64,000 nt of DNA from Mesodorylaimus sp. YZB2_4 (Eukaryota > Nematoda > Enoplea > Dorylaimida > Dorylaimidae): assembly GCA_030248295.1 (NCBI GenBank), contig JASANH010000986.1, positions 310,001-374,000 of the forward strand. The letters are read 5' to 3'. The notes beneath the pieces are model-generated. The model saw nothing but the letters and a program-made list of their open reading frames with translations. It did not search any database and had not been told where the DNA came from. Shown here in pieces: positions 5,996-64,000 of this stretch. The translations under genes were made by a program, and so were the position numbers. Numbering within the stretch: the stretch's first letter is position 1; every line of letters starts with the position of its first letter.

Positions 5996-6743
5996 TCACT
6001 GCCCCTCGGCCGGCGGCGCTTCTCCTCCTTCGGCAGCTGGCGGAGCTTCTCCTCCCTCGGCGGCTGGCGGAGCTTCTCCTCCCTCGGCGGCTGGAGGCGC
6101 GGCCTCTCCTCCCTCGGCGGCTGGCGGGGCTTCTCCTCCCTCGGCGGCTGGAGGTTCGGCAGCTGGCGTGGTCTCGACTGGTTGGGCTTCGCCTTCGGCA
6201 GGAGCTGCGGCAGGTGGTGGCGGCGGCGGTGGAGGCGCTGCGGGCGCTGATTGCTGCTGCTTGGCGGCTTTCGCTGCGTTGGCCAAAGCGTCGGCGGCCG
6301 CTTTCTCTCGGATCACGCGCTCCTGTTGACATTTCACCTGGCAGTAGATTTCGCCCTTCATCAGAACTTGCTTGCCCGGTCCCATCGGCCGTTGGCATCC
6401 AGCGCATCGGAAGCACTTCTTGTGCAACGTCTTGCCTTGCGTCTAAAAGCGAAGAGACAATGGCGCAGGAGCTCAAACCAAAGAAAGCATCACTTACCGA
6501 AAGGCCGTCACCTTCAGGGATCGGCTGCTTGCAGGCATCGCACCGCGGCCGGAAGCGCTTCGTGAAGCAGGTCTTGCAGAAGACTCGGTTGTCGCGGATC
6601 TTTCCGTGATCGTCGGCGCCTAGCACCGCCTTGCAGAGACCGCACGTCAAGCAGTTGAAGTGGAACATTCGCTTTCCGAACTCGCGCGACTGGCCACTGA
6701 TCACCTTGCTGCACTTGAAGCACTTGGTCAACGCGTACGCCAT
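5996..6743 (-). CDS. Two-LIM-domain protein with repetitive Ala/Glu/Gly/Pro tail
   Basis: LIM domains are paired zinc fingers that dock other proteins, often on actin or muscle structures. There are two exons, 6498-6743 and 5996-6442, joined in phase 0 across a 55-bp intron, giving 230 residues. LIM1 covers about residues 7-70: it opens with CFKC, has a central HFNCLTCGLC and closes with FCKTC. LIM2 opens with RCDAC, is split by the intron, and continues with HKKCFRCAGC and YCQVKC. A Lys/Ala-rich linker follows, then a run of eight prolines and at least five near-identical copies of AAEGGEAPP. The LIM pair resembles CRP/CRIP-type proteins, but I cannot name an orthologue. The start is the first ATG, directly before the first LIM cysteines. 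The repeat DNA is GC-rich and could vary in copy number. Confidence 0.85.
6005..6165 (-). repeat. Coding minisatellite in the LIM protein tail
   Basis: Tandem GC-rich units of about 27-30 bp encode repeated AAEGGEAPP blocks. Neighbouring units are almost identical in DNA, with one variant unit carrying an extra Ala. All units keep the reading frame. Confidence 0.8.
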
Positions 6744-8219
6744 CTTGACTTCGACCTGGACAAATCGACAGACGCAACCGCACTCTGGCCTTCACGATCG
6801 ACGACTAAAGAGCCGCAGATGCTGACTTGTGTCTGGAGAGAGCTCTACTGGCACCGTAAACTGGGACACGTATCACAGTGTAAAGCGGGCCACAGTTTAC
6901 AAAATGGTTATTATAACACTGCAGTCACGTCACGGATGACGTACTTGGCTCATTTGCTGCATTTTGAGTCATGTTCGAAGCACATTGGCACATCGGGACT
7001 CACTTACCTCATTCGGCCACATTAGATGACTTTGAACAAGATATACCGTCTTAAAAGCCCCAGACCCTACGAAAACAGGACAACGTGCGTCATGCTGATG
7101 GACTAACGCTCAGAGCACACTGTGCCCACTAACTGATGGCTGGAAAAAAACTCCCACTCTTTTTATTATCCAAGCACAATATTTATGGCATGGCTCCTAG
7201 CGGGCACATGACAAGTCCAGGTCCATAAAGACCTACTGTTTTCCCCAAAGCTATCGTCCCTAAAGTGTTCGGGAAACCTACAGTACGTCAGCTCGGTATC
7301 AAAGTTGGCTTTGCTGTCATGCTAAGATCCTGCTGAAGCTTAAGATACTTAAATAGAAACTTGCAAGTATTCCTAGCTCCTTCACCGTCTTGCTGTTTGT
7401 CAGGTTAACCGCCTGTCAAAACAAAACTGTGGACTGAAAGGTAATCGACAGGGACCAAACACTTGCACGAAGCCAGAAATGGACGTGGTTTTGAGGATAA
7501 GGTCGTTTCATGAGACAATGCGGGATCCCTATCGCACCTACCACAGATAAATATACTGTTGGTAGCAGTCGGGCTTTAGTGCATGCGCTGACACTAATGT
7601 TAAACCGGCATGGTCTTCCCGCAGTTACGCAATTTCACTTAACTGATGCTAGTGAAAATAAGGTCAGAACTTAAATGTGGCAATGGTGAGAACGAAGCAA
7701 GTATGCATAAAAATACAAACTGTAAGGCGCGGGGGCGCATAAATATAAGCTGGCTCAGAACAATCCAGGAACAGTATTCAGAGATCATCCTTACAGATGG
7801 CTGCAGTAGGTCGGAACATGGAGTGGCAAAGTACCATCAACAGCGTCACCAAAAATCGAGCATCTGGTTCACGTCTAAAGTTTACTACCTCTCAAAATAG
7901 TCTCGGTAAACATGTAGTGCGATTGGCCCCTCAACGACTATTTTGCAAGGAACTCTCTTAGGTATTCTGCACTTTCTTGCAACATTTCTCTCGAACTTTA
8001 CAGTCTAGGAAGTCACGTGACCAGAGGAGGAGACTCCTGATTGGCTACTTCCAGATACTTTACACTGGTCGATTTCTGGAGGATCAGTTCCTCACCTGCC
8101 TCGTCATTCCTCCTTTCGCTGCCCGTCGTGAGCGCTTGTTCGAAAGTGAGCTTCCGTGTCGAAGTCGCGTCGTCGTGTGCGAGTGAGTTTGTTGATCGTC
8201 GAGTCGAAGTGTGCGAAGA
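6744..8219. other. Intergenic between divergent LIM gene and 8.2-kb gene
   Basis: Head-to-head spacer of about 1.5 kb that should contain both promoters. No exon, RNA gene or clear TATA box was identified. Open frames such as 7646-7900 have no recognisable domain. Confidence 0.4.
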
Positions 8220-9771
8220 ATGGCTGCCGTAAGTCCTCGGCCTTTCAGCCTTCTCCTCATCATAACTCGTTTCTTCATTTTCAGCCCGATCCGATCGCCA
8301 TGCACAACAAAGCGCAGTTCCTGTCGTCCCTGTTCGAGGCCCTGTCCACGGTCAAGCAGGTCCCGCCGTCGTTGCGAAGCCAAGTGTCGTACGCTCGAGC
8401 GACGTGCAAGCACTTCCTGAAACCGCATTTCCGTCTCCAACGCATCGCCCAGCAAAAGCTGCCCCTCGGCAAAGACTTCGAAAGCGGCCCGTTTGCCGCG
8501 GCCACCGATCAAGTCAAGCAAGCGTCCGACGTAAGTAGCTGCCTTGTACGAGTCGGGTCCCCGGGGTAGAAGGGCTCTCGTCCGTTTCAGCCGAAGGCGA
8601 GCCCAACGTTGCTGGCAGCCATGGGCAAAGTGGACGAGGCCGTCAAAGAATCGAAACAGCCGGTGCTGCAAGAGACCGTCGACGTGCTGCAAGAACTGGC
8701 CAAGATCATGTCGCTCCCCCAAGCCGTCCTCAAACCCGCCGTGCTCGCCTTGGTCAGCTCCGGAGTGGTGGACACGGCCGAAGTGGACGAGATCACCGCC
8801 AAGGTACCCGCCGCCACGTTCACGCCCGATCAACTCTGGGACGCCGTCGCCGATCGAATGGATGCGGCCAAGGACGGTCGAGCGGCCACCTACCGCAAGT
8901 TGGGAAAGGCGCCCCCCGTGCAGCAGAACGTGACCAAGGCCGGCTACTACCAGGTAAGCTCGTGTGCTCGGCTTTGCCTGACCGCCGCTGACGAGTTGTG
9001 GGTTTCAGATCGTGGACGTGCCGAAAGACAAGCAATTCGCCTCCATGCCCATCACGACCTCCCTGGCGGGGCACATGGCCTGCGGACCGCAACGAGCCAA
9101 CTTCACGCACCTGGACGCGGCGGGACACCCGGCGGCGAGGGCCCTGATCGAAGACCTGACCAACATCCTGCTCATCGGCACGAACGTGGCCGAACTGGAT
9201 CGAGAGAAGAGCGTGGCCATGACGTTGCGGTCGATCAACCAGCAGGACCCCATGGCCGTCTCCTTCCGGTTAGTCCCTTTGGTCATGATCTTACTCGAAA
9301 GAGCATGCTCTCATTTCAGTACCATCATCGACAAGAGCACAGCCCAGCCAGCCCCGACCTCCGGCAAGCAATCAGGCGGCACAGTCAAGTCGGCTTCCCC
9401 CGTGACGGCGTCCCCCGCCCCTGCCAGTACCAAGTCTCCCGTTGCGGCCGGTGCCCCTGGTGGCGAGATGAACTTCCTGGAGGTGTTCGAGGTAAGGACT
9501 CGGTTGGGCGAGACGAGGCTGTGTCGGCTGACGCGCATTCCCTTTTCAGAAACTGAAGCAGATGGGTCAGGGCGTGACGGTGCCGATCGAGATGCTGGAC
9601 GCCGTGTTCGCGCAGTTGGTGAGCGGCAACGTGGCCACGGCGGACGAAGTGAACCAGGCCAAGGCCCAGCTGAAGACGAAGGCCGACGACAAGGGTCAAG
9701 TCTCGTTCCCCATCATCCAAGAAGTGTTCATGAATGTGTTCGGCTCGAAGCTCGGCCAGCCCGCCAAGTGA
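8220..9771 (+). CDS. Unrecognised six-exon protein, 423 residues
   Basis: I do not recognise this family. The gene model is strong: exons 8220-8228 (only Met-Ala-Ala), 8285-8530, 8591-8953, 9009-9268, 9320-9491 and 9550-9771. All five introns are 51-60 bp with GTAAG/GTTAG donors and TTTCAG-type acceptors, and every phase matches. The protein starts with mostly helical, Ala/Gln/Val-rich sequence. A low-complexity Ser/Thr/Pro/Ala linker is encoded by exon 5. A last conserved-looking block of about 75 residues follows. No signal peptide or membrane segment is visible, so it is probably cytosolic or nuclear. The helical block near 'LKPAVLALVSSGVVDTAEV' and the C-terminal block near 'LDAVFAQLVSGNVATADEV' look like two copies of one motif. 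Codon use is strongly biased to C/G endings, unlike most neighbours, which fits high expression. Confidence 0.85.
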
Positions 9772-11039
9772 TCTGCGATCGATGATGTGCAACGGAGGTG
9801 GCTGTGCATGCAATGTGTGTCCGATGAGTGGATGTGTCTCGGGTGTCGAAAAAACTGGTGACCGAGTTGAGTTCCACACGTGCAAGCCATAGTCAGGTCA
9901 CGCTGGGGCGGTACAAGGGTTCGACCTTTTTACTGGGCGATAGCCATTCGTAAATCGTCCAACTGACCTAGCAAGCGGGGGGTGATGAGTGGCTCCTGGC
10001 AGCACTTGCTGCTCCTGCTCTGCTCGAAGTAGAGAGACGGAAGAGCTGGAGTGGCTAATAGCTGGGGCGATCTTTTGTACAGGCTAGAGTGGATAGACAT
10101 GCAGTTTCGTTGGCCTTGTTCTAATTGTAAGTGGCAGCAGGAAACTAGACCATGAGCGAGATAAGGGTTGAGCTCCTGGCTCATCCTCCAGGCATCTGTT
10201 CCTTTTTAAAATTTTTGCGGGTCAGGTATAGTGTCACCCAGTTCCCCACGGGACTTAAAACCCGTTTTGCCTATTTCCCAGCAGTAATGATATGATAAGC
10301 GATCCCGTGAGACGATATCTTTCCCTGGCAGCTTTCACTTTGACGTCTACGACCGAATCCTCCGCCCAAATCTACCAGCGTTAGAGTTTCACAAGGCTTC
10401 CTGGCAGGTGATGTACGTACAGTTCGTGACTCGAGACGGGCAGATAATATGTACGCCGTGAACCGCAGGTTTGACGACCTGCGGAGCGTGTTCTAGGTAC
10501 ATGTTGGTCAAGTTCCACAACCGACTACTGCCTTGGAAGAACGCCAAGGAGAAGAATGAGGCTAGCGAGATCTGACTCTTCTGTAGGAAAACGTCCCAGT
10601 GTTGCCTTTTTCAAGTCTTGCAAAGAAGGACGCTGGCGGAGATGCTGCTGAAGGACATCATGAAAGAGGGGTTAAAGTTCCTAGACGCGCTGAACTAGGA
10701 GTGGCACCGTCAGTAGCTGCGGTCGATCATGGCCAGGCACTGGTACACCGACACCCGTTTAACTGTAAGGAAGGCAGGCCGGGATTCGAGGTGGTCAAAC
10801 AATAATCCGAACCGAACCTCACTAGAAAAAGGAAAATGTCGACAAGAACCATCACGGAGAAACTACAGAGGCGAAGTCGAAGAGCGGCCATGGTTTCGTT
10901 GCATCTGACCTGTTGTGCGTGAAAGACATGTTGTGTGGGTGGACAAGAACGGTGTGTACACTTCCTGGGTGATATGCCAGTCCAGACCAGCTGCCATCAG
11001 CCATTACTGCATACTTGGTTGATCGGAAAGATGGTCCAG

Positions 11040-11310
11040 ATAAAGAAGATAAAGCAGTCATATTGGATACGTCAGGGTGGATCAGGCGTTTGGAGATCAT
11101 AGCAATCAGATAAATCGACCAAATCAGGCAGATCAGGTTGGATTAGGAATGGGATCTGCAATCAGAGTGGCCTGCTGACTGATCAGCTGGCTTAAGAAAA
11201 GTTGATCAAATTGATCAGGCTGGTCAGGCTGGGAAGAACAGAGGGATGGTAGGATTGATCAAATTAGAGCAGATAAGGTCAGGCCACCTCTGCGAGGCCT
11301 ATCAGGTCAG
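11040..11310. repeat. Degenerate GATCAG-rich tract
   Basis: Words of the form GATCAGG, GATCAAAT and GGTCAGG recur irregularly through about 270 bp, for example around 11080, 11128, 11180-11230 and 11250. It looks like a decayed short tandem repeat. It is also unusually rich in the GATC tetranucleotide. Confidence 0.6.
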
Positions 11311-11346
11311 ATGGGATATACTGTATATGGCATGTTAAGAAATAGT

Positions 11347-11367
11347 CACACACACACACACACACAC
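11347..11367. repeat. (CA)n microsatellite
   Basis: About ten uninterrupted CA units. Confidence 0.95.
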
Positions 11368-11724
11368 GACTGTATATGCAGTACATCGCAGTGACAAGGA
11401 CGGCCAATGGACGAGTCAACTACAACATTGACAAGATGGGTATGTACGAGCCTGGTGCTTATTGCTGATACAAGAAAAGTAACCGATACAGTATATCATA
11501 TTTTAACCAGACAATCAACAAAGTAGTGATTTATCATGAGTGCGCGCATGCACGCGACATTTCTTAATCGAGAAATAAGCACCCTCTTCATGGGATAATG
11601 CGCAAAATCTCTAAATCGCTAAATCACAACTCGCTTGCCCTCATCAACGGCAATTACCAAGAAAGAACAATGTAAGCCCGTGTTTCGAGATGATGAACTG
11701 GAAAAAATAACGAGACTGAAACTT

Positions 11725-51256: not shown

Positions 51257-52292
51257 GGTGCCTAGGGCTTCACTGATTTTGCTCAAGACGTCTTTACTGT
51301 TTTCCGGAGTTTGGCTATGCTTAAAAGCTTGTGAACAATACGTGGTAGCGGGATAATAAAGATTCGTCCTAGGCTGTGATCTCTTGCACGTTGGCCGCAT
51401 GAACTTGTCGATGTTTGACTGTTTCTACTAAATGCCTGCTGAAATCGAATAAGAGGCACACAGCGGGTCAATCAGATCCACTGATGACATCGTGAGCTTC
51501 CAGTTACAGCCGAATTAGAACCATTACTGTCAGCCAAGCGGCCAACAAGCGCGTCGAGTCAACACTTTTTTCCATCCGCTTTAAAATCATTCAGCCATCA
51601 GGCAAGCCTTGACAAAAAGTTCTTCGATGCCCACATGATAGAGGGCCACATCGAGGCACCTAACTGTACCCGCGTAAGCCTGTGCGATAGACTTTGTCGC
51701 TTCCTCTCACTCCACGTTCGCACCCGCTTTCTATTTTTCCACCTCATACAGTAATGCACCTCGTAAAACAAGACTTCGCATGCCTTTTTGACAAAATTCA
51801 CATGAAGATCTTCCAGATTTTAAAAACAGCCTAGTAGTTTCGGGGACTAGACTTCATCGTCAGCGGTGGCGTTGTGAGCTCACGATCAGTCAGTAATTTG
51901 GAATCCGAAACTGCGACAACTTAAGCGATAGTTTATGAAACCCAAAGCCAGTGTGAGAAACTGGAATGCGCGGGCACTCAAAAGAAGGCACTCAACCTAT
52001 TCTATTGTCTTCGATGGTGCCTGAGGCAAGAAAAAGAAAGCGATCACGGAAACGCCTCTACACCTTGGCGACAGAAGGAGGCGGTTGGTGACAAATGCTT
52101 TCTCTCATGCACTTATTATCGGTTATTTTCTATGTTGTTATGAGAACTGGGGATCTCTTGCGTGTTTTTAAATTGGTCTCTAGTTAGCCCTGAGCACTTA
52201 GTAGCGCACCACCAAGCGGGGGTGTGTTTTTGGTTAAATATCACATTTAAATAATCGCTCTCACTTTCTCCCTTCATTCCATCCGAGACAAG
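51257..52292. other. Intergenic before the tyrosinase gene
   Basis: Contains AATAAA for the previous gene at 51355-51360 and, on the right, the tyrosinase promoter. No exon seen. Confidence 0.4.
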
Positions 52293-55200
52293 ATGGCCGC
52301 CTCGGGGTCATTTTTGACGATTTTCATAGTTCTTGTCGGTTTGCATTGTGGTCACGGACTAACAACAAAGAATCCAGTGATGCAGGACGATGAGTGCGTG
52401 GAGTACGTGATGAGCTTCGCCCAATGCAGAATGCGCTTCCATGAAGAGTTTGTTCGGGCGGTTTGCGAGAAGCTTCGACACTGGTTACAAGCAGCCTATG
52501 CGAACTCGTCCAAGGCTGACTATATTCAAATTTTGACGGTCAATCAATTAAAGTACTTTTTGGAAGTGACTTCATGCCGAAGGTTGGAATGTATTTGCGA
52601 CCACTGGGATATGTGTCAAGAAGCCAAGGCCAAGTTGAAGTCAAGCTACGCTTTCAATCTCACTGAACTCTTCAACGAAATGAAGGCTGGGAGCGATGCT
52701 ATTGAGCAGCAAGGACACCAGTCCCCAATGCATCGCAGGAAACGCCAAGACGAGCTTGCTGCCGAAGCAGAGTTGGTGCGCAAGTTTGGTAAAGTGACCA
52801 GGAAAGAAATCCGTGCCATGACCGAAGAGGAAAGATATCGGTTGTTCAGCGCCTTGAACGCACTGAAAATGGACATGGTGGATAACATGTCCAAGTATGA
52901 CATCATGATCATATACCACACTGGCGAGAGAGCACCGGAGGCTCACAGCAGTGCGGCCTTTCTACCTTTTCATCGTGAATTTGTGAAGAACATGGAAGTG
53001 GCTCTACGAATGATTGACCCGAGGTAAGTGACATCATCGCGTACCGCGTGGTTTGACCTATCCTTACGGCTATGCGATTTCAGTGTCAGTCTCCCGTACT
53101 GGGATTCGACCTTGGACAGCCCTCTGCCAGAACCGGCTGATTCAATTTTGTGGTCGGACGAATTTTATGGAAATGGAAAGGGAGACGTGGTGACTGGCCC
53201 ATTTGGCAACTGGACAGTGCTTCCAGACACAATTTCTCAAGAGCTATCGCCTTCAGGAAGAATCGTCAGAGGGGTGGGCGAGAGCAAGAGGGCTCGGTAC
53301 AGCATGATCGGAGAAGACGACGTGCAGGCGATACTGACCAAACCAAATTTTAAAGATCTGGTATTTTGCGGAGATCCCTATTTCGAATTGGTCCACGGAG
53401 CCAACCATATGTTTGTAGGAGGGCACATGGTTGACCTTAGAAGATCTCCAAATGACCCATCCTTCTTCTTAATCCACTCTTTCGTTGACCTCATATGGGA
53501 AACGTGGCGTCAGTCGAAAACTCCCGTTGCTAGGTCAACTTACTTGCCAGATAACGAAACCTGCAATGCGTTCGACAAGGGCGAAATGCTAATCAAACCA
53601 TTCACACCGAAAATAGTTGATGGCCTAGCAAACACGTACTTAAATGAGTTCTACTCATATCAGCCACGTCCAAAGTGTACACCTAAAAACCCGTCGTGCG
53701 CTGGATCGCCTTATTTATACTGCGATGCGCCCAACTCAAGGTGCTTGTCAAAAATTCGAGTGACTGGGAATTGCACAGGTAGGGTGCCGATCTTAATCAC
53801 TGCTAGAGTACAGTAGACTGTCTCGTTTGAACAGTAGGCTGTCTTGTTTTGTTTTGTTGTCTTCTGTTGCGGTGGTCAGTTCTAGTCTCACAGGCCTCAT
53901 GCGCGTCTTACCTTCTGCATTTAGGCTATGACGGCACGGATATCTGCTACAAGAGCAAGTGCGTCAATGGCAAGTGTGTTCCTATTACTGGCACAACTGC
54001 TGCCTCGTCATTGGTACGCCTTTCTACTACACCGGGACCAGCAACTGCTAGTCCAGTTGCCACAGACGCACATCCAACTTCAACAATGCAATCTTCTGTC
54101 CCTGCCAAAACACCACAAGCCGATGTCGGGGTATCACCTGGTCCTACTGTCAGCAGTCCAAAAAGCAAGACAATGAAGGATGACAGTACAGCGACAAATA
54201 GCACAACTCTTGATCCCCCACCAACTCCAACCGCGCCTCGTCCAACCTCAATTTCTCCAGAACCATCAAGCACAACAACAACGACATCAACGACTCCCAG
54301 TTCGACAGTCATGAGCACAACCACGACCACAATTGCAACCACAACAATGAAACCAACGGAACCTTCGACTACGACTGTTGTTACATCAACACCCCCGACA
54401 TCGACCGCACCACGTACAACGACTGCCGTGACAACGACTAAAGAAACAACAACACCTGTGACCACTTCGGCACATACGTCGCTGACTCAGCCACCAACAA
54501 CAACAATAGCAGTGACGCAACCTCCAGCAGACGCTACTACCTCTCCATCATTCACCACGGTACCCTCTGAAACCGACCATCCCCTCGCTTCATCGCCATC
54601 ACTTCTATTAGGAACAGAGGAAAGTACAACTGCCGAGGCGCCTAGTTCCACAGACACGCCATTATACAATCCCACTCCGGATGAATCAGCCTCGTTAGAG
54701 GTTTCCTCTGCAACGTCGCTGGATGATGGCACTGCAATGACCACACTTTCAACAACACAAACGCCCGTTGAAAAGGAGACTACATACGCTGTTGACCCAG
54801 CTTCCTCTGACCTTGGAATTGCTACCCCTACTTTGGCAGGCGAAGAAATTGTTCCTGAGAATCCGCCGCTTCCCAACAGCACTGTTGAGCTGGCTCCAAC
54901 GAAAGTCTGGTTCCCTGTCACTGTGTTGGCCTCAAACGGAACTGATGCTTCCAAGGCCTATACCGAGGGCCGTATTCTATGCCACGCATCTGATGGCAAG
55001 ACATATTCTGGCAAGCATGCTGATCCCGATGATGTACCTTACTACACAGGGTCTGCTTTTGCATCGATGCCGTGTCCATTCGCTGGTCCTAATCCATCAA
55101 AAGCAGAACTAGTGGTGAAGGACGAATTTGGGAAACCATGCGCCAGCCGTTGTCTGGAAAAGGACAGCACGTATTCCCCTTGCAAGCCATCAGTCACATT

Positions 55201-56356
55201 CGATACTGACCGCAGCAAATCGGATAAGATTCCCAGGACACCCAATTTGGCCAAGGCTAAGTTCTTGAGCTGGAATGGATATCAGCGTGCACCAGACAAA
55301 TTCATATTCATTTGTGAGAAGTTTATGCCCTATTTTAGTGATACTGAATTATCATCGTCTCTTCCCTTCTAGGCAATACAGCGCCAGTCTCGGAGGCGGC
55401 CGGTACACCGACAGCGAGTTCCAGTGTATCATCCATGGGCGGCACTGTCCAGTACAGTATGCCATCGGACGATGGTATTTCGGTCATCATTTCCACCAAG
55501 ACCGATGCTGCTCATCAAATATACAATGGCGGTTGTTTGAATATGCATCGCTGCTGCGGATTATGGGCGTCTGGTGGTGAATGCCCAAGAAACCTATGGA
55601 TGCAGCTGGCCTGCGAATCATCATGTAACGTGTGTAATCCAGGCGACCAAAAGAAATTGCCAGGTTAGCTAGCTCGGTCTTGTCAAGCAAATCGATAGAC
55701 ACATAGGTCGTGTTCTTTTCAGATACCTGCATCGACTATCATCCACGTTGCTCTGACTGGGCTGACATGGGCCTTTGCACTAAATACGCCCCGTGGATGG
55801 AAGAAAACTGCAAGAAGACATGCAATGTCTGTTCACGCAGTCTGCAAGATCTGGGCGTAATGTGCGGGTCTCCCAAGAAATCAGGTATCTATCCTTTAAC
55901 ATGCGCCTTCCCCAGAGTTTTTAAGCTTGTGTCTCCCATCACATTCGAGCACTTTTAGGCTCAGACATCACATGATTTCACAGGGGTCAGACGCGTGTGA
56001 GGAGCAAGTAAAGGGAGATGCGTCCTTTCCTGAGACTCCATAGAGTTCAAGAACCCGGCTGACTATCACAAATATGCATCTTGTGTGTGGCTGGAGTCAT
56101 TGACCGCAAGAAACACCAGGGCACTGGAAGTAGGGGAAGGGCAAATGCAAGAATACGGTACTTGACATTCATAATCAGGGAGGACCCAATCTAGTCTCAG
56201 CAATCTCTCCCTTTTTTTTAAGGTTGCCAAAACTACAACTCAGAATGTGATGGTTGGGCAAAGAAAGGCGAATGCGAAAGAAACCTTTGGTGGATGAAGG
56301 AGAACTGTCCCCTGGCTTGTAAACTTTGCAGTCAAGACAGAGTGAAGAGCAGCTAA
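52293..56356 (+). CDS. Secreted tyrosinase with mucin-like region and three ShKT domains
   Basis: Type-3 copper enzyme that oxidises phenols, in nematodes linked to cuticle or eggshell tanning; secreted. Six exons: 52293-53023, 53084-53778, 53925-55313, 55373-55663, 55723-55884, 56223-56356, all in phase, 1133 residues. Signal peptide at residues 1-22. A dibasic RRKR at 148-151 suggests a furin-cleaved propeptide of Cys-rich type. Copper site A: His209, His218, His227 (HSSAAFLPFHREF). Copper site B: His348, His352 and His375 (VHGANHMF ... DPSFFLIHSFVD). All six ligands are present, so it should be active. Then about 250 residues rich in Thr/Pro/Ser, likely O-glycosylated. An unassigned Cys-containing block follows, then three ShKT six-cysteine domains in the last three exons (each with W at the core and ending C-x-x-C). 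The ShKT domains may anchor it to matrix. Confidence 0.93.
53980..54620 (+). repeat. Thr/Pro-rich mucin-like coding tract
   Basis: Dense ACA/ACG/ACC threonine codons, with runs such as STTTTTSTTPSSTVMSTTTT, inside tyrosinase exon 3. Low complexity, expected heavy O-glycosylation. Confidence 0.85.
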
Positions 56357-56879
56357 CTGTATGACCATTTGTCCAAGTGCCAGAGCACTGCACTAGCGGC
56401 ACGTGTTAGGTTTGAATACAATCATACAGTCCAGATGACGCCTGTAGTTTAGTTCTGTTGACCACCATGCACGTCGCACTAATCAGACTCTCAGAATCGA
56501 ACAAAACTCCTGTGATGTAAACGCATTGGTAGTTTGCATATTTGCCAGGTCATAGTCTCATGCCACTTCGCTTACGCACCGCTTATGATTAGGCTACCGC
56601 AAAGGTTACTGCTGGGAGAATGTTACAGCTATTAGCACTAGCGCAGCGCACCTACGGCTCACTTACTCTGCTTGTTGTCGACTAGTAAAGTAGTTTTATC
56701 TACTCGGGTCTTTAACATAACAACTCTCAATCGGTCAGTTTGACGGTAGGACAAAACAGACCCACAATGTATACCAGTTTGGTGCCCGACTCTTCTCTCC
56801 TGCATTCTTCATTACCGTAGGTTTTGGCTATGTGCAGCTAAGTATTGTCTGGATAACCTTCAGGAGCTTACAAGTAGAC
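56357..56879. other. Intergenic after the tyrosinase gene
   Basis: 3' flank of tyrosinase. No other feature supported. Confidence 0.4.
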
Positions 56880-57094
56880 ACGAAGACGCGGAGACACGAA
56901 CAGACTTTTTTCCACATACTGAACCGAGCAACATGGACCATCACGCATGAAAGCATTACGAGCACGCACAAGTCACCGTCTCCCCATTCTTCGTCCACGG
57001 GTTCTTCAACCGCCCAACTCTTTGCGGGTCAGCGACAGCACCTTGGGTAGATTTTCCGGCGGGTTCTCAAGATGCCCGGACGACTTGGCATACG
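56880..57094 (-). pseudogene. Orphan last exon of the tyrosine phosphatase family
   Basis: The segment 57006-57094 on the minus strand matches only the end of the last phosphatase exon (from Tyr-Ala-Lys to the stop, frame intact) and then breaks off. Sequence 56880-57005 matches the 3' flank of the family: it aligns with 57434-57553 downstream of copy A, and the part near 56970-57005 equals the last 40 bases of the window after copy B. It shares a His-Leu variant (GHLENPP) with copy B but keeps the Lys codon where copy B has a stop. It cannot encode a phosphatase. Confidence 0.85.
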
Positions 57095-57433: not shown

Positions 57434-58985
57434 AACACGAAGACACGAGCTGGCTACTTTTTACAAAACCGAGCACAAAATATCCACCATCGGATCACGA
57501 GCACGCACAGAACACACCATAATCATCGCACCACCCTTCGTCCTTGGCTTCGTTCAACCGCCCAACTCCTTGCGGATCAGCGACAGCACCTTGGGCAGAT
57601 TCTCCGGCGGGTTCTCGAGATTCCCGGACGACTTGGCATACGACACGATCGAGTAGACGAGAGCCATCGCTTGACACGGTTCCCGAAGCACTCCTGAAAA
57701 CGACAACAGTTAGGCAAAAAATTTAACCCGAAACGGAAGCGGCCCTACCGAATCGTTGATTTTGCAGGGAGATGATGATCTCCTTGACCGACCACTGCCA
57801 GCCGCGTTTGATGGCTTCGATGGCGATGGCGAGGGCCGTGAACTGACCGGAGCGTGTAGTGCCACTGCCGCAGTGGACGATCATGGGAGGCGGATGGCTG
57901 AGGTGGCCATTGGCTTTCATCATTTCCGATTCGGCATCCCACACGGCGTCCATCAGTCGCAGCAGCTTGGCCGTCGGCAGTCCCTTCGGTTCCCATCCCT
58001 CGGCGTGTAGATGCAGGTGCGTCAGAGACCGTTCGGGTCCTTGATCCTGCTTCCACTTGAGCTTCGTGGTGGTGATGCCCGGCTGTTGGCTGCCACCAGT
58101 GCGCTTCACTTCGACCGCGCCATAGGTCTCGACTTGACCTGCCGCTCGGGGCCAGTAGATCGGGAACGGATCTTCGGTCTTGGCCGGGGAGCTGCTCTCG
58201 TCGAACTGACAGATGGCCACGATCACTTGCGCCTCTTCCTGCGCGACCATATGCCAGAAGTCGTTGATCGTTTCAGGCAGCGGGGCTTGCGTCAGAACGA
58301 ACCGTCGAGTCTGTTGGTTCGTGGCCACGTAGCTGAAAACCAAGTCCCTTAGTTCCCCCTCGAGACGACCAAAGCTGCAAGGACAGACACTAACCTGGCG
58401 TGGATGTAGTCTCCACCGGGATAGTTGCGCAGTACGACTCGGGTGTGATCGTAGAGGAAGATGTTGCCGTTGTATCGATTCTTCTCCATGTTCATGCGGA
58501 AGTTGTCGAATCCGGGCGTCTTGGCGACGATGGCGTTGAACTCGTTGAGTAGCTCGACCATCAACCGGGCTTCGTCCGTGGCCGCGATCTTGTTGATCAA
58601 CGCCTGAACCGTCGTGCCGTCCCTAATCGTCGACTCGTCCATTGGTCTTTGCGCAAGCGACCGGCCACCAGCACTCGAATGCACAGCTAAGCAAGGAAAC
58701 GACTGTTCACCACGGAGACAATGAGAACAATGAGTGCGCAGAGTCGTAAATATTGCAAAATAGGTATATGTTGATAGGTACTACACAGCCTTATTGTAAA
58801 GACGCGACACGCATACTGACAGTGCTGTGACCATTAGAACCCTGCCATGCGAGCAGCACAAACAGAGCGATCTTGACCCTGGGCAGTCGGTCGAGAGCCT
58901 GTAAATGGATGTAGAAGTTTTCTCTGATCACAAAAATTTCTTCAACCGCCTTAAAAAACCCTTTGGAGTGTAGGAGTTGGCGTAT
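57434..58985 (-). repeat. Left arm of a large inverted duplication
   Basis: Covers copy A, its introns, promoter region and flanks. It matches 62530-64000 in opposite orientation, including intron sequence and the upstream region (for example GAAGTTTTCTCTGATCACAA near 58911 against its complement near 62593). The right arm reaches the window end, so the full length is not known. Confidence 0.9.
57554..58642 (-). CDS. Protein tyrosine phosphatase domain protein, copy A
   Basis: Single-domain cytosolic PTP of 323 residues. Exons 58395-58642, 57749-58332 and 57554-57693 join in phases 2 and 1. Domain landmarks: KNRYNGNIFLYDHTRV (phosphotyrosine loop NRY), DYIHA, TQAPLPETINDFW, YWP, the signature HCGSGTTRSG with Cys and Arg intact, and Q in SLQNQRF. 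The WPD loop reads GWEPKGLP, so the usual general-acid Asp is absent. That suggests slow catalysis, substrate trapping or a pseudophosphatase. The domain fills the protein, as in nematode-expanded PTPs often expressed in the germ line. The start is MDES; an upstream in-frame ATG at 58684 is not conserved in copy B, where a stop intervenes. Confidence 0.9.
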
Positions 58986-60565
58986 TATTTTGAAGGCACC
59001 GATTTACCATAGGCCGATTGGAATACCACGCAGCCTTACTGTAAAGACGCGACAGGAATATCGACACAAAAGTTACCCTTGCTTGGTGAGATGTGCAGGT
59101 TAATATCGGCTTCTTCCATGCATGCTGCTGATGTTCACCATTCCGCATTTTCTGTGACTTCTCGAGCTGTTTCGCTTGGGCTAACTGCTTGAAAATGGTC
59201 CAGCTTTCGAGTATTTGCGGGAAATATTGAATTGGAGGCTGCCAAAACAAAACTCATTCTTTAGATGAGTTATCAAGTCTTCTTTACTTGCGATGGGGAG
59301 CGATAGATGCAGTATTTATTTGAATCAATTCCATGCAGCAGGCCAAAAATTGACAGCGTCAAGCACGCAGTACATGCTTGTGTTCCAAAGCTAATGCCAG
59401 GGGGCTCGCACTGATCACTGCAAAAGGTAGCCTGCCCGGGTCGCGGCCTACTGTAATGTGCATCTGTCTCTCATGCTAATCCTAAGTGCGCATTTACAGG
59501 GTAGGGTTCGACTCCCGACTGGCCAAAAAATGATTTGTCAATAGCCTTCGAGTGCGCTATGTGATCTGGCTGCTCTGCCACGCAATAATAGCCGACCCGG
59601 GGCGAGACACAGAAGCAGCCGTTTATAAGGGCGGCCTGACTCTCGACTGATTGTCAGAGGACCACCAAAAGACACCGGCAGGCACGGGATCGGTGGTCTT
59701 ATGTTATCCAACTGAAGAAAGGTACAGTGGATCGATAGGTGGTAACGCGTTATTTTTCCTTCTTGATTACGTTGTTTTTTCTAGGACCTCCTGAGGGAAA
59801 TGTGCCTTCTCGTTTGCCCCAGTACCACGCGATTGTGGGCTTAGATCAAGATTTCCAGGGGTCCAAGGAGCCACATGCGGCGGCTACCATGATCAGTGCA
59901 AAGACAGCCATGCCTGCGCCATCGGTTGGGAGGAACACCGCCGACGCACTTCTGTCGATTCGCCCAGAGTCATCAAAAAGAAGAGAGCCACAGCTCCTCT
60001 CTGTCTAATCAAGAAAGGAACGGCGTCGATGGCGCCAGCTGCTCCCGCGGCGAAAGCGACAACAACTTTGGCTACAGCTGCTTCTGCTGTTCCAGCAGGA
60101 AAAGGGACGGCTACTCCGCTCCAGCTTCCCCAGGCGCGAAGGGTAAAATTCTATCTCCGATACGGGCGCTGCCCAAGCAATCGTTCATAGTTGGCTGATG
60201 GGGGAAACAAAATGGCCCTCTGCTTGTGCTTGGTGTCTCACACTAGTGCTGGTTGTTGTATCCTATTATCTTTGCATCAGCAAAAAATTCATGAAATTAA
60301 ACTGGGAAAGGTAGTACATGTGGTTTGATGCGCCTTCGGAGCAGGCCAGTCCAGGCTGACAAAAGGTGATCGAGAAAGATTTTGCCTGGCTACTGGCTGG
60401 TCACATGTACTCGCGGTTTTAGGGTTGACAAGTAGACCATAGCAACTAGCCTCATTTATGTCACGAGCTTGGGGAAGGTGGCTGCTAGAAAATGCTCACA
60501 TCTGCAGCTCTTGTATAGTGGATAATTCAGGGACTGTGTTGTGAAAAACGTTATTATACTTGCAG
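58986..60565. other. Spacer between the phosphatase copies, left part
   Basis: A second copy of a motif around TGTAAAGACGCGACA lies at 59030-59056; the first is at 58788-58816 in the copy A promoter. A B-box-like GGTTCGACTCC is at 59507. GTTTATAAGG at 59618 is TATA-like. From 59784 (after TTTTTTCTAG) a frame with Ala/Lys-rich text is open to 60008 in one phase and 60189 in another. I cannot decide which is coding. Confidence 0.35.
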
Positions 60566-60922
60566 GACAGGTCTGTCTTTCAATTGCGCAATCTCCTACT
60601 CAGGCTGGAATTTTGATGAATGTGCAGCTTCGTAAGACCTTCTAGAAGTAATGGGGCACAACGAAATTCAGACACTGGGATGTTTTGCGTGCCTGGCGCT
60701 TTTGACCCAATGCATTGAATTTATAAGTGCTAAAGTGAAGATGACTTTGGTGACTCATCCAAAGGATGGAATTTGGGTCCGCAGTGAAGTTCGGTGGCCA
60801 CTGGTGTTCTCCTGCTGCAGATGTTCTCCACATATCCTCAGATTATCCAGCAGTTAGCCGAAGCAGCATACGGCAAGGAGCCTTGGCAACACATGCTCGG
60901 AATGTTGAACACACGAGTATAG
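60566..60922 (+). CDS. Probable 3' exons of an unrecognised gene
   Basis: Two stretches look like real exons. 60566-60631 has a TTGCAG acceptor and a GTAAGA donor and encodes QVCLSIAQSPTQAGILMNVQ. A second, about 60790-60922, encodes VATGVLLLQMFSTYPQIIQ, then QLAEAAYGKEPWQHMLGML, and ends in TAG. The phases do not join directly, so an exon between them or a different acceptor is needed. The 5' part may include the Ala-rich frames at 59.78-60.19 kb. AATAAA at 61484-61489 could end the transcript. Family not recognised. Confidence 0.4.
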
Positions 60923-62014
60923 TGGCAGATAATATTTCAGTTTACATGCGGGAAAATATTTTTCTCTCGTTCAGTCCCTGTTGGGGCATATTCTAAAAAC
61001 TGTTTAGAGTTTTAGCTCTTTGTCGTGAGTCAGTGAGTCGTGAGGTTCTGATGTCTGCCAGATTGCCTGAGAACTGATATGCAACTTCAGGCAGGAAAAT
61101 TGTAATGACAACTGTTTGGGGCCCGAGTAAATTTAATACTTTTATTATGACTGCTCATGAGAGTCGGCTCCATAAAATGATTTATGCATGAGGAAATGAT
61201 CTATTTGTTGCGTGCGTAAGCGTGGACAAGCATCTGTCGATGTGTCCACGCTAGCCTTTGCTGACACTGCTTTTGGATCGCAATGGCGCTGTCTTTCTGT
61301 TGCCTCGTATCTTTGGGGAGTCGATAGGACAGGATAATCTTCTTTCCCTGATCTATATTACCTTGTGCAGTGGATAACCCAGTTTTATACTGTTGTGTAT
61401 GGTTCTGTTAGGCGCAGCGCCCAGTGAACTATGGGGCTCAAAGCTAAAACTCTGTAATTTCATAAACTTGTAATCGGGTCCATAATAAAGCATGGAAGTC
61501 GTGAAACAAGCTTCCTCTAAAGTCCCTAAGCCATTATGCTTTGCAGGAAAGTTTTACTTTAGTACCTACCTGCGAGATTTATAGGTCTGGTCAGCAGAAG
61601 CCACCCAGCTAGATCTACAGTAGCTACCCATTCTTGAGGCCCTGACATTTTTGGAGAGTTAAACGGCTGTGCACCTTTTGGGGTCACCCACCATCCATTC
61701 AATGCACACCAGAACAAGCAACAACTAGGAGTTCACTGATACCCGAATCAAGGACAGCCATAGAATTCAATCGTAAGCATGTACGGGTATTAAGCCCGAG
61801 ATTACAGTAAATGAAATACTGAATAAGCAGCCTCTTCCTCCCGCCACAGGATCGACCGCATTCAAAAGTAGTACGGTATCATCCAATCAGCACAGACATC
61901 TGTTCACATCATTCTTGCGCAAGTAAGGCAATCGAGTCCATCAAACGGTCGAATGGACCCTGGCCAATGGCAAGACGATGAGAATGTGATGAGACGATTC
62001 AGAGAGATGATGAC
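60923..62014. other. Spacer between the phosphatase copies, right part
   Basis: Probably 3' UTR of the preceding exons up to the AATAAA at 61484, then anonymous sequence. No gene supported. Confidence 0.35.
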
Positions 62015-62094
62015 GAGATGATTCAGACCATACTTCAAAGACTGTCCATACTATGCATCCTAGACTGTCTTTGAAGTATGGTCTGAATCATCTC
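62015..62094. repeat. Perfect 28-bp inverted repeat (hairpin)
   Basis: 62015-62042 and 62067-62094 are exact reverse complements, each containing ATTCAGACCATACTTCAAAG or its complement, with a 24-nt loop. Confidence 0.95.
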
Positions 62095-62216
62095 TGTTCC
62101 CATTTCTCGGCTGGAACCAGTTTGGTCAAGTATCATGTTCCAATGTTGTGGTTGTGCATTGTTCCCCCTGATTTGGCCCCTGCTGGAAAGCCTAGAATTA
62201 CAGTCAACGCGGAAGG

Positions 62217-62343
62217 GCGCATTTATAGTCGACAAAATTTCTACACCTACCCCTCAGGTAGGAGTAATAGCACACGCTTAAGTATATGGTCATTACACCT
62301 ACCCTAGGGGAAGAAGTAGAAATTTTGTCGACTATAAATGCGC
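62217..62343. repeat. Second hairpin with near-perfect 27-bp arms
   Basis: 62218-62244 (CGCATTTATAGTCGACAAAA...) and 62317-62343 are reverse complements. The loop of about 70 bp contains CCTACC/GGTAGG words that could pair further. Looks like a foldback element. Confidence 0.9.
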
Positions 62344-62529
62344 CTGAAGAGACGCTAGCGACTGGCTCCCTCAGGTAGGCTTAGTCGCTAGTGCATCGGG
62401 TTGGCAAGGTGTACAAAACTGACGTGAGTTTTGCACCTTCCATTTCCGAGGGTTAGGCAGGAGGGCCAAACTGTGCCAGAGGCTTTAAAGCCATAATGGC
62501 CAATGGTGAGTCGGAGCCATGCAAATGAT

Positions 62530-64000
62530 TCGCTAAGCCAACACCTACGCTCCATAGTTTTTTTAAGGGCGGTTGAAGAAATTTTTGTGATCAGAGAAAA
62601 CTTCTACATCCATTTCCAGGCTCTCGACCGACTGCCCAGGGTCAAGATCGCTCTGTTTGTGCTACTCGCATGGCAGGGTTCTAATGGTCACAGCACTGTC
62701 AGTATGCGTGTCGCGTCTTTACAATAAGGCTCTGTAGTATCTACATGCACCTATTTTACAATATTCACGACTCCGCGCCTTCATTGTTCTCATTGTCTCC
62801 GTGGTGAGCGGTCGGTTTGTCGCTTTGCTGTGCATTCGAGTGTTGGTGTCGGGTCGTAAGCTAGACCAATGGACGATTCGACGATCAGGGACGGCACGAC
62901 GGTTCAGGCGTTGATCAACAAGATCGCGGCCACGGACGAAGCCCGGTTGATGGTCGAGCTACTCAACGAGTTCAACGCCATCGTCGCCAAGGCGCCCGGA
63001 TTCGACAACTTCCGCATGAACATGGAGAAGAATCGATACAACGGCAACATCTTCCTCTACGATCACACCCGAGTCGTACTGCGCAACTATCCCGGTGGAG
63101 ACTACATCCACGCCAGGTTAGTGTCTGTCCTTGCAGCTTTGGTCGTCTCGAGGGGGAACTAAGGGACTTGGTTTTCAGCTACGTGGCCACGAACCAACAG
63201 ACTCGACGGTTCGTTCTGACGCAAGCCCCGCTGCCTGAAACGATCAACGACTTCTGGCATATGGTCGCGCAGGAAGAGGCGCAAGTGATCGTGGCCATCT
63301 GTCAGTTCGACGAGAGCAGCTCCCCGGCCAAGACCGAAGATCCGTTACCGATCTACTGGCCCCGAGCGGCAAGTCAAGTCGAGACCTATGGCGCGGTCGA
63401 AGTGAAGCGCACTGGTGGCAGCCAACAGCCGGGCATCACCACCACGAAGCTCAAGTGGAAGCAGGATCAAGGACCCGAACGGTCTCTGACGCACCTGCAT
63501 CTACACGCCGAGGGATGGGAACCGAAGGGACTGCCGACGGCCAAGCTGCTGCGACTGATGGACGCCGTGTGGGATGCCGAATCGGAAATGATGAAAGCCA
63601 ATGGCCATTTCAGCCATCCGCCTCCCATGATCGTCCACTGCGGCAGTGGCACCACACGATCCGGTCAGTTCACGGCCCTCGCCATCGCCATCGAAGCCAT
63701 CAAACGCGGCTGGCAGTGGTCGGTCAAGGAGATCATCATCTCCCTACAAAATCAACGATTCGGTAGGCTCGCTTCATTTTCCATTTCTTGTTAGCTTTGA
63801 CGTAATTTTTGTCGTTTTCAGGTGTGTTTCGGGAACCGTGTCAAGCGATGGCTCTCGTCTACTCGATCGTGTCGTATGCATAGTCGTCTGGGCATCTTGA
63901 GAACCCGCCGGAGAATCTGCCCAAGGTGCTGTCGCTGATCCGCAAAGAGTTGGGCGGTTGAAGAACCCGTGGACGAAGAATGGGGAGACGGTGACTTGTG
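62530..64000 (+). repeat. Right arm of the large inverted duplication
   Basis: Opposite-strand copy of 57434-58985, carrying phosphatase copy B and continuing to the window end. Confidence 0.9.
62869..63883 (+). pseudogene. Protein tyrosine phosphatase, copy B, truncated by a stop
   Basis: Exons 62869-63116, 63179-63762 and 63822-63883 match copy A in position, phase and length up to the last exon. There GCC-AAG of copy A is GCA-TAG here. The stop at 63881-63883 removes the last 26 residues; after it the frame stays open to the ancestral TGA at 63959-63961. The read-out protein is 297 residues and retains HCGSGTTRSG and the altered WPD loop GWEPKGLP. Only a few residues differ from copy A (for example Asp/Glu near the start, Ala/Thr before PGFDNF, Leu/Phe before PIYWP). 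It could still be a shortened but expressed protein, since the catalytic core is complete; I treat it as a recent, possibly decaying paralogue. Confidence 0.8.

Follow-up and report, generated by a model that had tools for sequence, protein, structure and literature searches.

We found that two oppositely oriented copies of a tyrosine phosphatase (PTP) gene, lying near the end of the window of 64,000 nucleotides of Mesodorylaimus sp. YZB2_4 DNA that was analysed, form an inverted pair with a mosaic history, in a family with both intact and broken copies. The explanation we favour, at a probability of roughly three in four, is a PTP family that evolves locally by birth and death and undergoes ectopic gene conversion, in which the right copy is a mosaic that would owe its left-like body to exchange between the inverted arms. 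The case is a clear example of a known process and not a new kind of system.

A preliminary description had reported an inverted duplication with arms of about 1.5 kb, some 3.5 kb apart, and pairwise alignment confirms it. The left arm (57435-59015, minus strand) and the right arm (62498-64085, plus strand) share 91.6% identity over 1599 aligned columns (E=0), with ungapped inverted blocks of 919, 210, 167, 128, 119 and 44 nt, and are separated by a spacer at 59016-62497 of approximately 3482 bp (3.48 kb). The right arm does leave the window, in which it occupies 62498-64000, but the excess on the contig amounts to only 85 bp (to the equivalent of 64085), or to 176 bp when similarity to a third copy, a truncated tail, is counted as well. 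The spacer contains a repetitive element of about 1.4 kb (60276-61685) with many sequence matches at 86-90% on other contigs, and about 190 bp of this element recurs inverted beyond other copies. Upstream of the right copy, a MITE-like palindromic insertion (62216-62345) is missing from the otherwise homologous sequence at 419 kb of contig C78; GAAG, read by eye, flanks it on both sides.

The left copy (57554-58642, minus strand) is an intact PTP-domain gene of 323 amino acids, as recognised by spliced translation and PDB matches. Alignment columns place its exons at 58642-58395, 58332-57749 and 57693-57554; its introns (58394-58333, 62 nt, and 57748-57694, 55 nt) have GT..AG borders, and the spliced translation contains a single, terminal stop. 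Alignment and translation identify the right copy (62869-63961, plus strand) as the same gene in opposite orientation, head to head with the left copy, with exons at 62869-63116, 63179-63762 and from 63822 onward, and with both introns conserved in position. A TAG at codon 298 (63881-63883) removes its last 26 residues, indicating that the arms have not both been kept intact. The third copy, truncated to part of exon 3 and the 3' flank (56778-57094, minus strand), lies head to tail behind the left copy; its identity is 82.8% with the right tail (63873 to the equivalent of 64176) and 81.9%, over 149 nt, with the left tail.

The assignment of the arms to a tyrosine phosphatase gene is borne out by a match of Pfam PF00102 to the right protein (172.4 bits against a curated cut-off of 20.9; E=1.6e-50). 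This query contained one mis-read residue. The left protein was compared with PDB. The signature loop Cys-x5-Arg is present, as HCGSGTTR of the left protein aligns to HCSAGVGR of PDB 4bpc. The Asp of the WPD loop, which is the general acid in classical PTP catalysis, is replaced by Pro (WEPKGLP aligned to WPDHGVP); judging by this substitution, phosphatase activity may be weak or absent. Searches of the left protein against NCBIfam, a bacterial and archaeal library, and of the window against Rfam at gathering scores gave no match.

The initial observation that the exons are nearly identical and that intron and upstream DNA also align is true, but the similarity is distributed unevenly. Identity between the left and right copies reaches 98.8% in exon 1, 100% in intron 1 (62/62), and 99.5% over the first 406 aligned nucleotides of exon 2 (97.2% in the remainder); it is 70.9% in intron 2 (39/55), 94.3% in exon 3, 73.6% in the 3' flank, 85.1% in the near promoter and 98.0% far upstream (145/148). 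Counted as differences, the two copies are separated at 20/133 sites in the promoter, 3/721 from exon 1 through intron 1 to exon 2, and 58/444 in the tail (body vs rest, Fisher p=3e-25). The right copy and the copy at 418 kb of C78 (C78a418) differ at 1/133, 18/720 and 63/444 sites, respectively. The contrast between intron 1 (0/62 differences) and intron 2 (16/55) is significant (p=1.5e-6), whereas the control comparison of the left copy with the copy at 308 kb of C78 (C78b308) is flat (2/62 vs 4/55, p=0.42), indicating that coding selection alone is insufficient to account for the pattern. Outside the body the closest relatives mostly lie elsewhere: C78a418 for the right near promoter, the copy at 267 kb of C78 (C78c267) for the right tail, and C78b308 together with C78a418 for the left 3' flank.

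Local maximum likelihood trees were built for alignment columns 440-576, 606-1366 and 1500-1867, and each segment rejects the trees of the other two (6/6 tests; AU p between 1.6e-85 and 0.0017). The left and right copies group together in the body with support of 99, and the right copy groups with C78a418 in the promoter (89) and with C78c267 in the tail (100). Informative sites in the quartet of left, right, C78a418 and C78b308 number 28 and are arranged in blocks, so that the label switches 4 times along the alignment; as few switches were obtained in 0/20000 shuffles. At columns 1019, 1055, 1130, 1164 and 1166 the left and right copies have a common state absent from the other 6 copies; sites exclusive to the pair span 58227-58086 in left coordinates. 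A runs test on the pair gave 0/5000 with 8 sequences and P=0.0008 with 5, although this test is generous because exons vary less than flanks: in the 8-sequence set, 8/28 pairs reached 0/5000, including the left copy and C78c267 at columns 607-857 (exon 1 to early intron 1). The exon 1 portion of the tract is therefore not specific to the left and right copies.

Alignment, trees and difference counts thus point to a single conversion tract between the two copies, which at its widest would begin early in exon 1, take in intron 1 and end late in exon 2 (57904-58624, minus strand, in the left copy; 62887-63607, plus strand, in the right). Conflicting segment genealogies and a bounded tract, as expected of ectopic conversion, are both found; the 3' limit is sharp, and the 5' limit is bracketed, since five copies resemble one another in exon 1. 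This inference is based on a single assembly and a single alignment. The exchange between the inverted arms may have involved as much as about 0.7 kb, perhaps from left to right. The direction is uncertain, since the left copy is possibly part mosaic itself: its differences from C78b308 are fewer in the body (11/721) than outside it (25/589; p=0.003), and the runs test for this pair gave P=0.003 with 5 sequences and P=0.18 with 8. We propose that a small family of one-domain PTP genes was spread by DNA duplication and that its members trade sequence through non-allelic gene conversion. The right copy would have its near promoter from the lineage of C78a418 and its tail from a third lineage, and in the body, around intron 1 and exon 2, it almost equals the left copy, 5 kb away in inverse orientation. 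The proposed mechanism is that a break in one arm was repaired on the inverted arm as template, leaving a patch without crossing over.

Two explanations had been offered at the outset. Of these, arm-to-arm gene conversion agrees with the near-identical stretch spanning intron 1 and the different closest relatives on both sides of it. The other, one recent inverted duplication of the segment, appears very improbable, also when purifying selection is taken to have kept the exons alike. It would account for the gene, introns and promoter in both arms and for the low dN/dS, but not for an intron 1 that is identical beside an intron 2 that differs at 29%, and the right copy has its extra 130-bp insertion, missing in the C78 relative. 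The arms are also not mutually closest along their full length: although they agree at 98% far upstream, their promoters and tails have different closest relatives, and the segment trees disfavour this reading. A variant that we regard as possible, though on balance unlikely, takes the arms as sisters of one inverted duplication of about 1.2-1.6 kb, the left near promoter having been overwritten later by sequence of the C78b308 type and the right copy from intron 2 to the 3' flank by the C78c267 type. The far upstream identity and the body (718/721) are consistent with this, as is the C78b308 state of the left copy at 12/12 informative sites upstream of the ATG (58748-58649, first quartet). 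However, the likeness of the right copy to C78a418 continues upstream (91-95%, as far as 61900) where similarity to the left copy has already ended, and their far upstream identity (97.3%) is barely below that of the two arms; moreover, conversion would still be required, with tracts that merely differ.

An assembly artefact, in which misplaced paralogue reads created a spurious mosaic or the inverted arms were wrongly joined, seems quite unlikely. The family does contain near-identical copies, the genome is in 1067 contigs, and neither arm is more than 20 kb away from a contig end. Yet the bases of the right body at columns 719, 1082 and 1107 are not shared by any of the 7 remaining copies (one of them gapped at 1082), and a fold-back or duplicate artefact is improbable because the arms are about 8% apart and each has its own flanks. 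Neither 53000-56500 (40 of 107 candidates scored) nor 59100-60275 (40 of 515 scored) has a second copy among the candidates scored, which also makes a haplotig unlikely. Contigs C100, C78 and C139 showed no end-to-end overlap in the stretches compared, which did not reach the left end of either C78 or C139; the longest repeat common to two contigs spans 0.8-0.9 kb at 71-85% (C100:5-1980 vs C78:273598-275486).

The left and right copies belong to a set of eight long copies, all of a single PTP gene with 3 exons, found on these three contigs of the 145 Mb genome, in which at least 159 exon-level PTP matches were found. Four of the eight are broken, and three (left, C78b308 and C78c267) are fully intact, with pairwise dN/dS of 0.06-0.21 (binomial P 4.6e-7 to 0.0012), consistent with selection preserving intact copies. 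RNA-templated copying was rejected because all 8 aligned copies keep both introns, and a transposon carrying the gene was rejected after informal inspection by eye, as the unit ends of the C3 and C4 copies showed no common terminal repeats or target duplications. Three PTP copy sets were inspected, two of them chosen for equal scores. The two members of the C4 pair face opposite ways at a distance of about 240 kb and share 99.1% identity over 1032 bp, a stretch that takes in both introns; the match stops at the stop codon, and the amino termini differ, both in frame. This pair suggests a broader reading, which we consider unlikely, of the PTP genes as a conversion network: oppositely oriented copies may exchange entire gene bodies together with their introns, the tracts ending at gene borders. 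Proteins would then become homogenised, and diversity would build up in promoters, in start regions and at 3' ends. If this pattern does span the large PTP set of the genome, it becomes testable whether conversion homogenises proteins and leaves regulation free to diverge.

Inverted paralogous pairs kept alike are known from Caenorhabditis, where gene conversion is the proposed cause and identity, at first 99-100%, may stop within the gene after 297 or 764 nt (Zhao et al. 2007, PMC1803023). The present pair is similar in being from a nematode, in opposite orientation, and in combining near-identical gene segments with a remainder that is less alike; it differs in its multi-copy family, in flanks from different copies, in a 3.5 kb spacer instead of a short intergenic palindrome, and in being compared within one genome and not over three species. 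It would thus add a measurable conversion patch between inverted gene copies beyond those loci, with two introns as internal controls. Young C. elegans duplicates have a median span of 1.4 kb, are often adjacent and inverted when newborn, and often have structurally different ends (PMC2728529, PMC3449122). Our copies are likewise short, inverted neighbours with differing ends, but those studies concern duplication, and the mosaic described here requires later exchange. Judged by titles and abstract openings, none of the papers found in searches on nematode PTP genes and gene conversion or expansion was on point.

In mammals, the palindromes of the Y chromosome have long, near-identical inverted arms that undergo arm-to-arm conversion. 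The present locus resembles them in its inverted arms with putative arm-to-arm conversion, but its arms are only 1.5 kb long, the right copy is truncated, and near-identity does not extend over the whole length (91.6%; near promoter 85%, intron 2 71%, 3' flank 74%). The comparison with germline palindromes made at the outset is not supported. By its gene content the genome is that of a nematode, with Srab and Srsx chemoreceptor as well as MSP matches among 10 open frames scanned; a search for the exact SL1 leader pattern found 0 matches.

In a self-comparison of the window, 56967-59066 matches 62534-64000 in inverse orientation through blocks of 919 nt (98%), 210, 167, 128, 119 and 44 nt. BLASTN joins these blocks into inverted arms at 57435-59015 and 62498-64085, with 91.6% identity over 1599 columns and a spacer of ~3.48 kb, so that the arm size of 1.5 kb and the separation of 3.5 kb given in the preliminary description are both correct. 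The right arm extends 85 bp beyond the window end; the window corresponds to C100:310001-374000 in an assembly of 145.1 Mb and 1067 contigs, and the contig (C100) itself ends at position 386468. Each arm carries a copy of the three-exon tyrosine phosphatase (PTP) gene: LEFT lies on the minus strand, where its ATG is at 58642 and the last base of its stop codon at 57554, and its two introns measure 62 and 55 nt; RIGHT starts at 62869 on the plus strand.

A DNA search with the left arm as query gave 19 matches genome-wide, eight of them long (1.1-1.6 kb, 87-100% identity): C100 at 14, 94, 368 (LEFT) and 373 kb (RIGHT), C78 at 267, 308 and 418 kb, and C139 at 278 kb. Since these three contigs together make up 0.77% of the assembly, the long copies are clustered. 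Alignment and counts are based on these eight; the remaining 11 rows, comprising fragments, distant copies (C2, C78:172 kb), a piece upstream of the C139 copy and dispersed promoter repeats, were omitted from the counts.

Identity between LEFT and RIGHT changes along the gene: 98.0% far upstream, 85.1% in the near promoter, 98.8% in exon 1, 100% in intron 1, 99.5% and then 97.2% in exon 2, 70.9% in intron 2, 94.3% in exon 3 and 73.6% in the 3' flank. When promoter, body (exon 1-intron 1-exon 2) and tail are compared as blocks, LEFT and RIGHT differ at 20/133, 3/721 and 58/444 aligned sites, RIGHT and C78:418 at 1/133, 18/720 and 63/444, and LEFT and C78:308 at 12/136, 11/721 and 13/453. RIGHT is 99.4% identical to C78:418 in the near promoter but 69.1% in intron 2. 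From intron 2 through exon 3 and 119 aligned nt into the 3' flank, C78:418 equals C78:308, and LEFT is 97.5% identical to both in that flank.

All tests of mosaic history rest on one MAFFT alignment of the eight sequences. In the first quartet the 28 informative sites fall in blocks with four switches, and 0/20000 shuffles gave so few. Trees of promoter, body and tail are mutually rejected in all six cross tests (AU p <=0.0017), and LEFT and RIGHT differ at 0/62 sites in intron 1 vs 16/55 in intron 2 (p=1.5e-6), the control comparison of LEFT with C78:308 giving p=0.42. A runs test on the eight sequences, which is generous because exons are less variable than flanks, gave 0/5000 for 8 of the 28 pairs. 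One of these is LEFT/C78:267, from exon 1 to early intron 1; exon 1 is therefore not specific to LEFT and RIGHT, and the sites that only this pair has in common fall within LEFT 58227-58086. Most weight is borne by the intron contrast and the segment trees.

The data are most economically explained by a conversion patch between the inverted copies, superimposed on other exchanges within the family. The patch would span at most ~0.7 kb (LEFT 58624-57904, RIGHT 62887-63607), with limits placed at the nearest LEFT/RIGHT differences. LEFT is the likelier donor, though not firmly so, because it is C78:308-like from the near promoter through the 3' flank, whereas the closest relative of RIGHT switches twice along the gene. 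However, the LEFT/C78:308 rate in the body is itself below that outside (p=0.003), and the corresponding run has P=0.003 with five sequences and P=0.18 with eight, both of which weaken this assignment. The three differences within the tract are all private to RIGHT, as expected of changes that followed a conversion event, and they argue against a simple mis-assembly of LEFT reads.

The encoded protein consists of one PTP domain (PF00102, 172.4 bits, the query being the RIGHT copy read by eye with one residue misread), and its best-scoring solved relatives are receptor PTPs, e.g. 4bpc (E=5.1e-42). The Cys-x5-Arg loop is retained; catalysis may be weak, judging from the alignment, because the position of the WPD aspartate aligns to proline. 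Full 323-aa frames are found in LEFT, C78:308 and C78:267. In RIGHT, a stop at codon 298 removes 26 residues downstream of the Pfam match; the other four copies (C78:418, C100:94, C100:14 and C139:278) are broken. Values of dN/dS of 0.06-0.21 between pairs of the three full copies (3 nonsynonymous and 14 synonymous changes for LEFT vs C78:308) are consistent with selection on the protein.

With 150 of 231 candidates scored, the genome holds at least 159 exon-level PF00102 matches, several of which form equal-score pairs on the same contig in opposite orientation. Two sets, picked for equal scores and hence a non-random sample, suggest that conversion of gene bodies may be frequent in the PTP genes of this genome. 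The inverted C4 pair (C4:1004704-1005735 and C4:761041-762072, ~240 kb apart) has nine differences in 1032 bp (99.1%), both introns included; similarity stops at the stop codon, the in-frame amino termini differ, and the 3.5 kb compared per copy contain no other BLAST match of at least 100 bp. On C3, a 1268-bp unit is >99% identical in three copies (342814-344081, 389872-391139 and 477897-479164). Those at 343 and 478 kb lie in opposite orientation and have ~3.1 kb in common; they differ at 6/1268 sites of the gene unit vs 36/1843 in the homologous flanks (p=0.0004). The 390 kb copy has only the unit in common with them over the 3.5 kb compared.

In Caenorhabditis, oppositely oriented paralogous genes with near-identical segments, some of which stop within genes, were described by Zhao et al. 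2007 (PMC1803023), who propose gene conversion as the cause. Another paper (PMC2728529) gives a median span of 1.4 kb for C. elegans duplicates, newborn ones being often inverted and adjacent, and cites an earlier study in which gene conversion in C. elegans occurred mostly in large families. The LEFT/RIGHT case fits these accounts and is a further example of a known phenomenon, not a new kind.

Behind LEFT, in head-to-tail arrangement, comes a third, truncated copy (56778-57094) made up of the end of exon 3 and its 3' flank. A dispersed repeat of ~212 bp (56511-56723) occurs elsewhere in pairs ~4.6 kb apart, the spacing expected of LTRs, and is probably a solo LTR. The spacer contains a dispersed repeat (60276-61685), a near-perfect palindrome with 32-nt arms upstream of the right arm (62015-62094) and a 130-bp palindromic insertion (62216-62345) absent from homologous C78 sequence. 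LINE-like reverse-transcriptase text, read by eye, lies beyond RIGHT at the equivalent of ~64.8-65.2 kb. At the opposite contig end, a larger inverted duplication (C100:1-4946 and 6007-11424, 86.9% over 5.4 kb) adjoins the 14 kb PTP copy and may be a mobile element; near the C139 end, 289072-290176 and 290790-291872 form a 1.1-kb inverted repeat (80%).

An exact search found no canonical SL1 leader. The 10 open frames scanned in the window gave domain matches to tyrosinase (two), MSP, Srab (two), Srsx, a Tc3-type transposase helix, DnaJ, LIM and Ras, the Srab and Srsx chemoreceptor families being a nematode marker. A tyrosinase-domain gene lies at 52251-53813 and is followed at ~55.4-56.4 kb by ShK-like cysteine-rich modules, read by eye.
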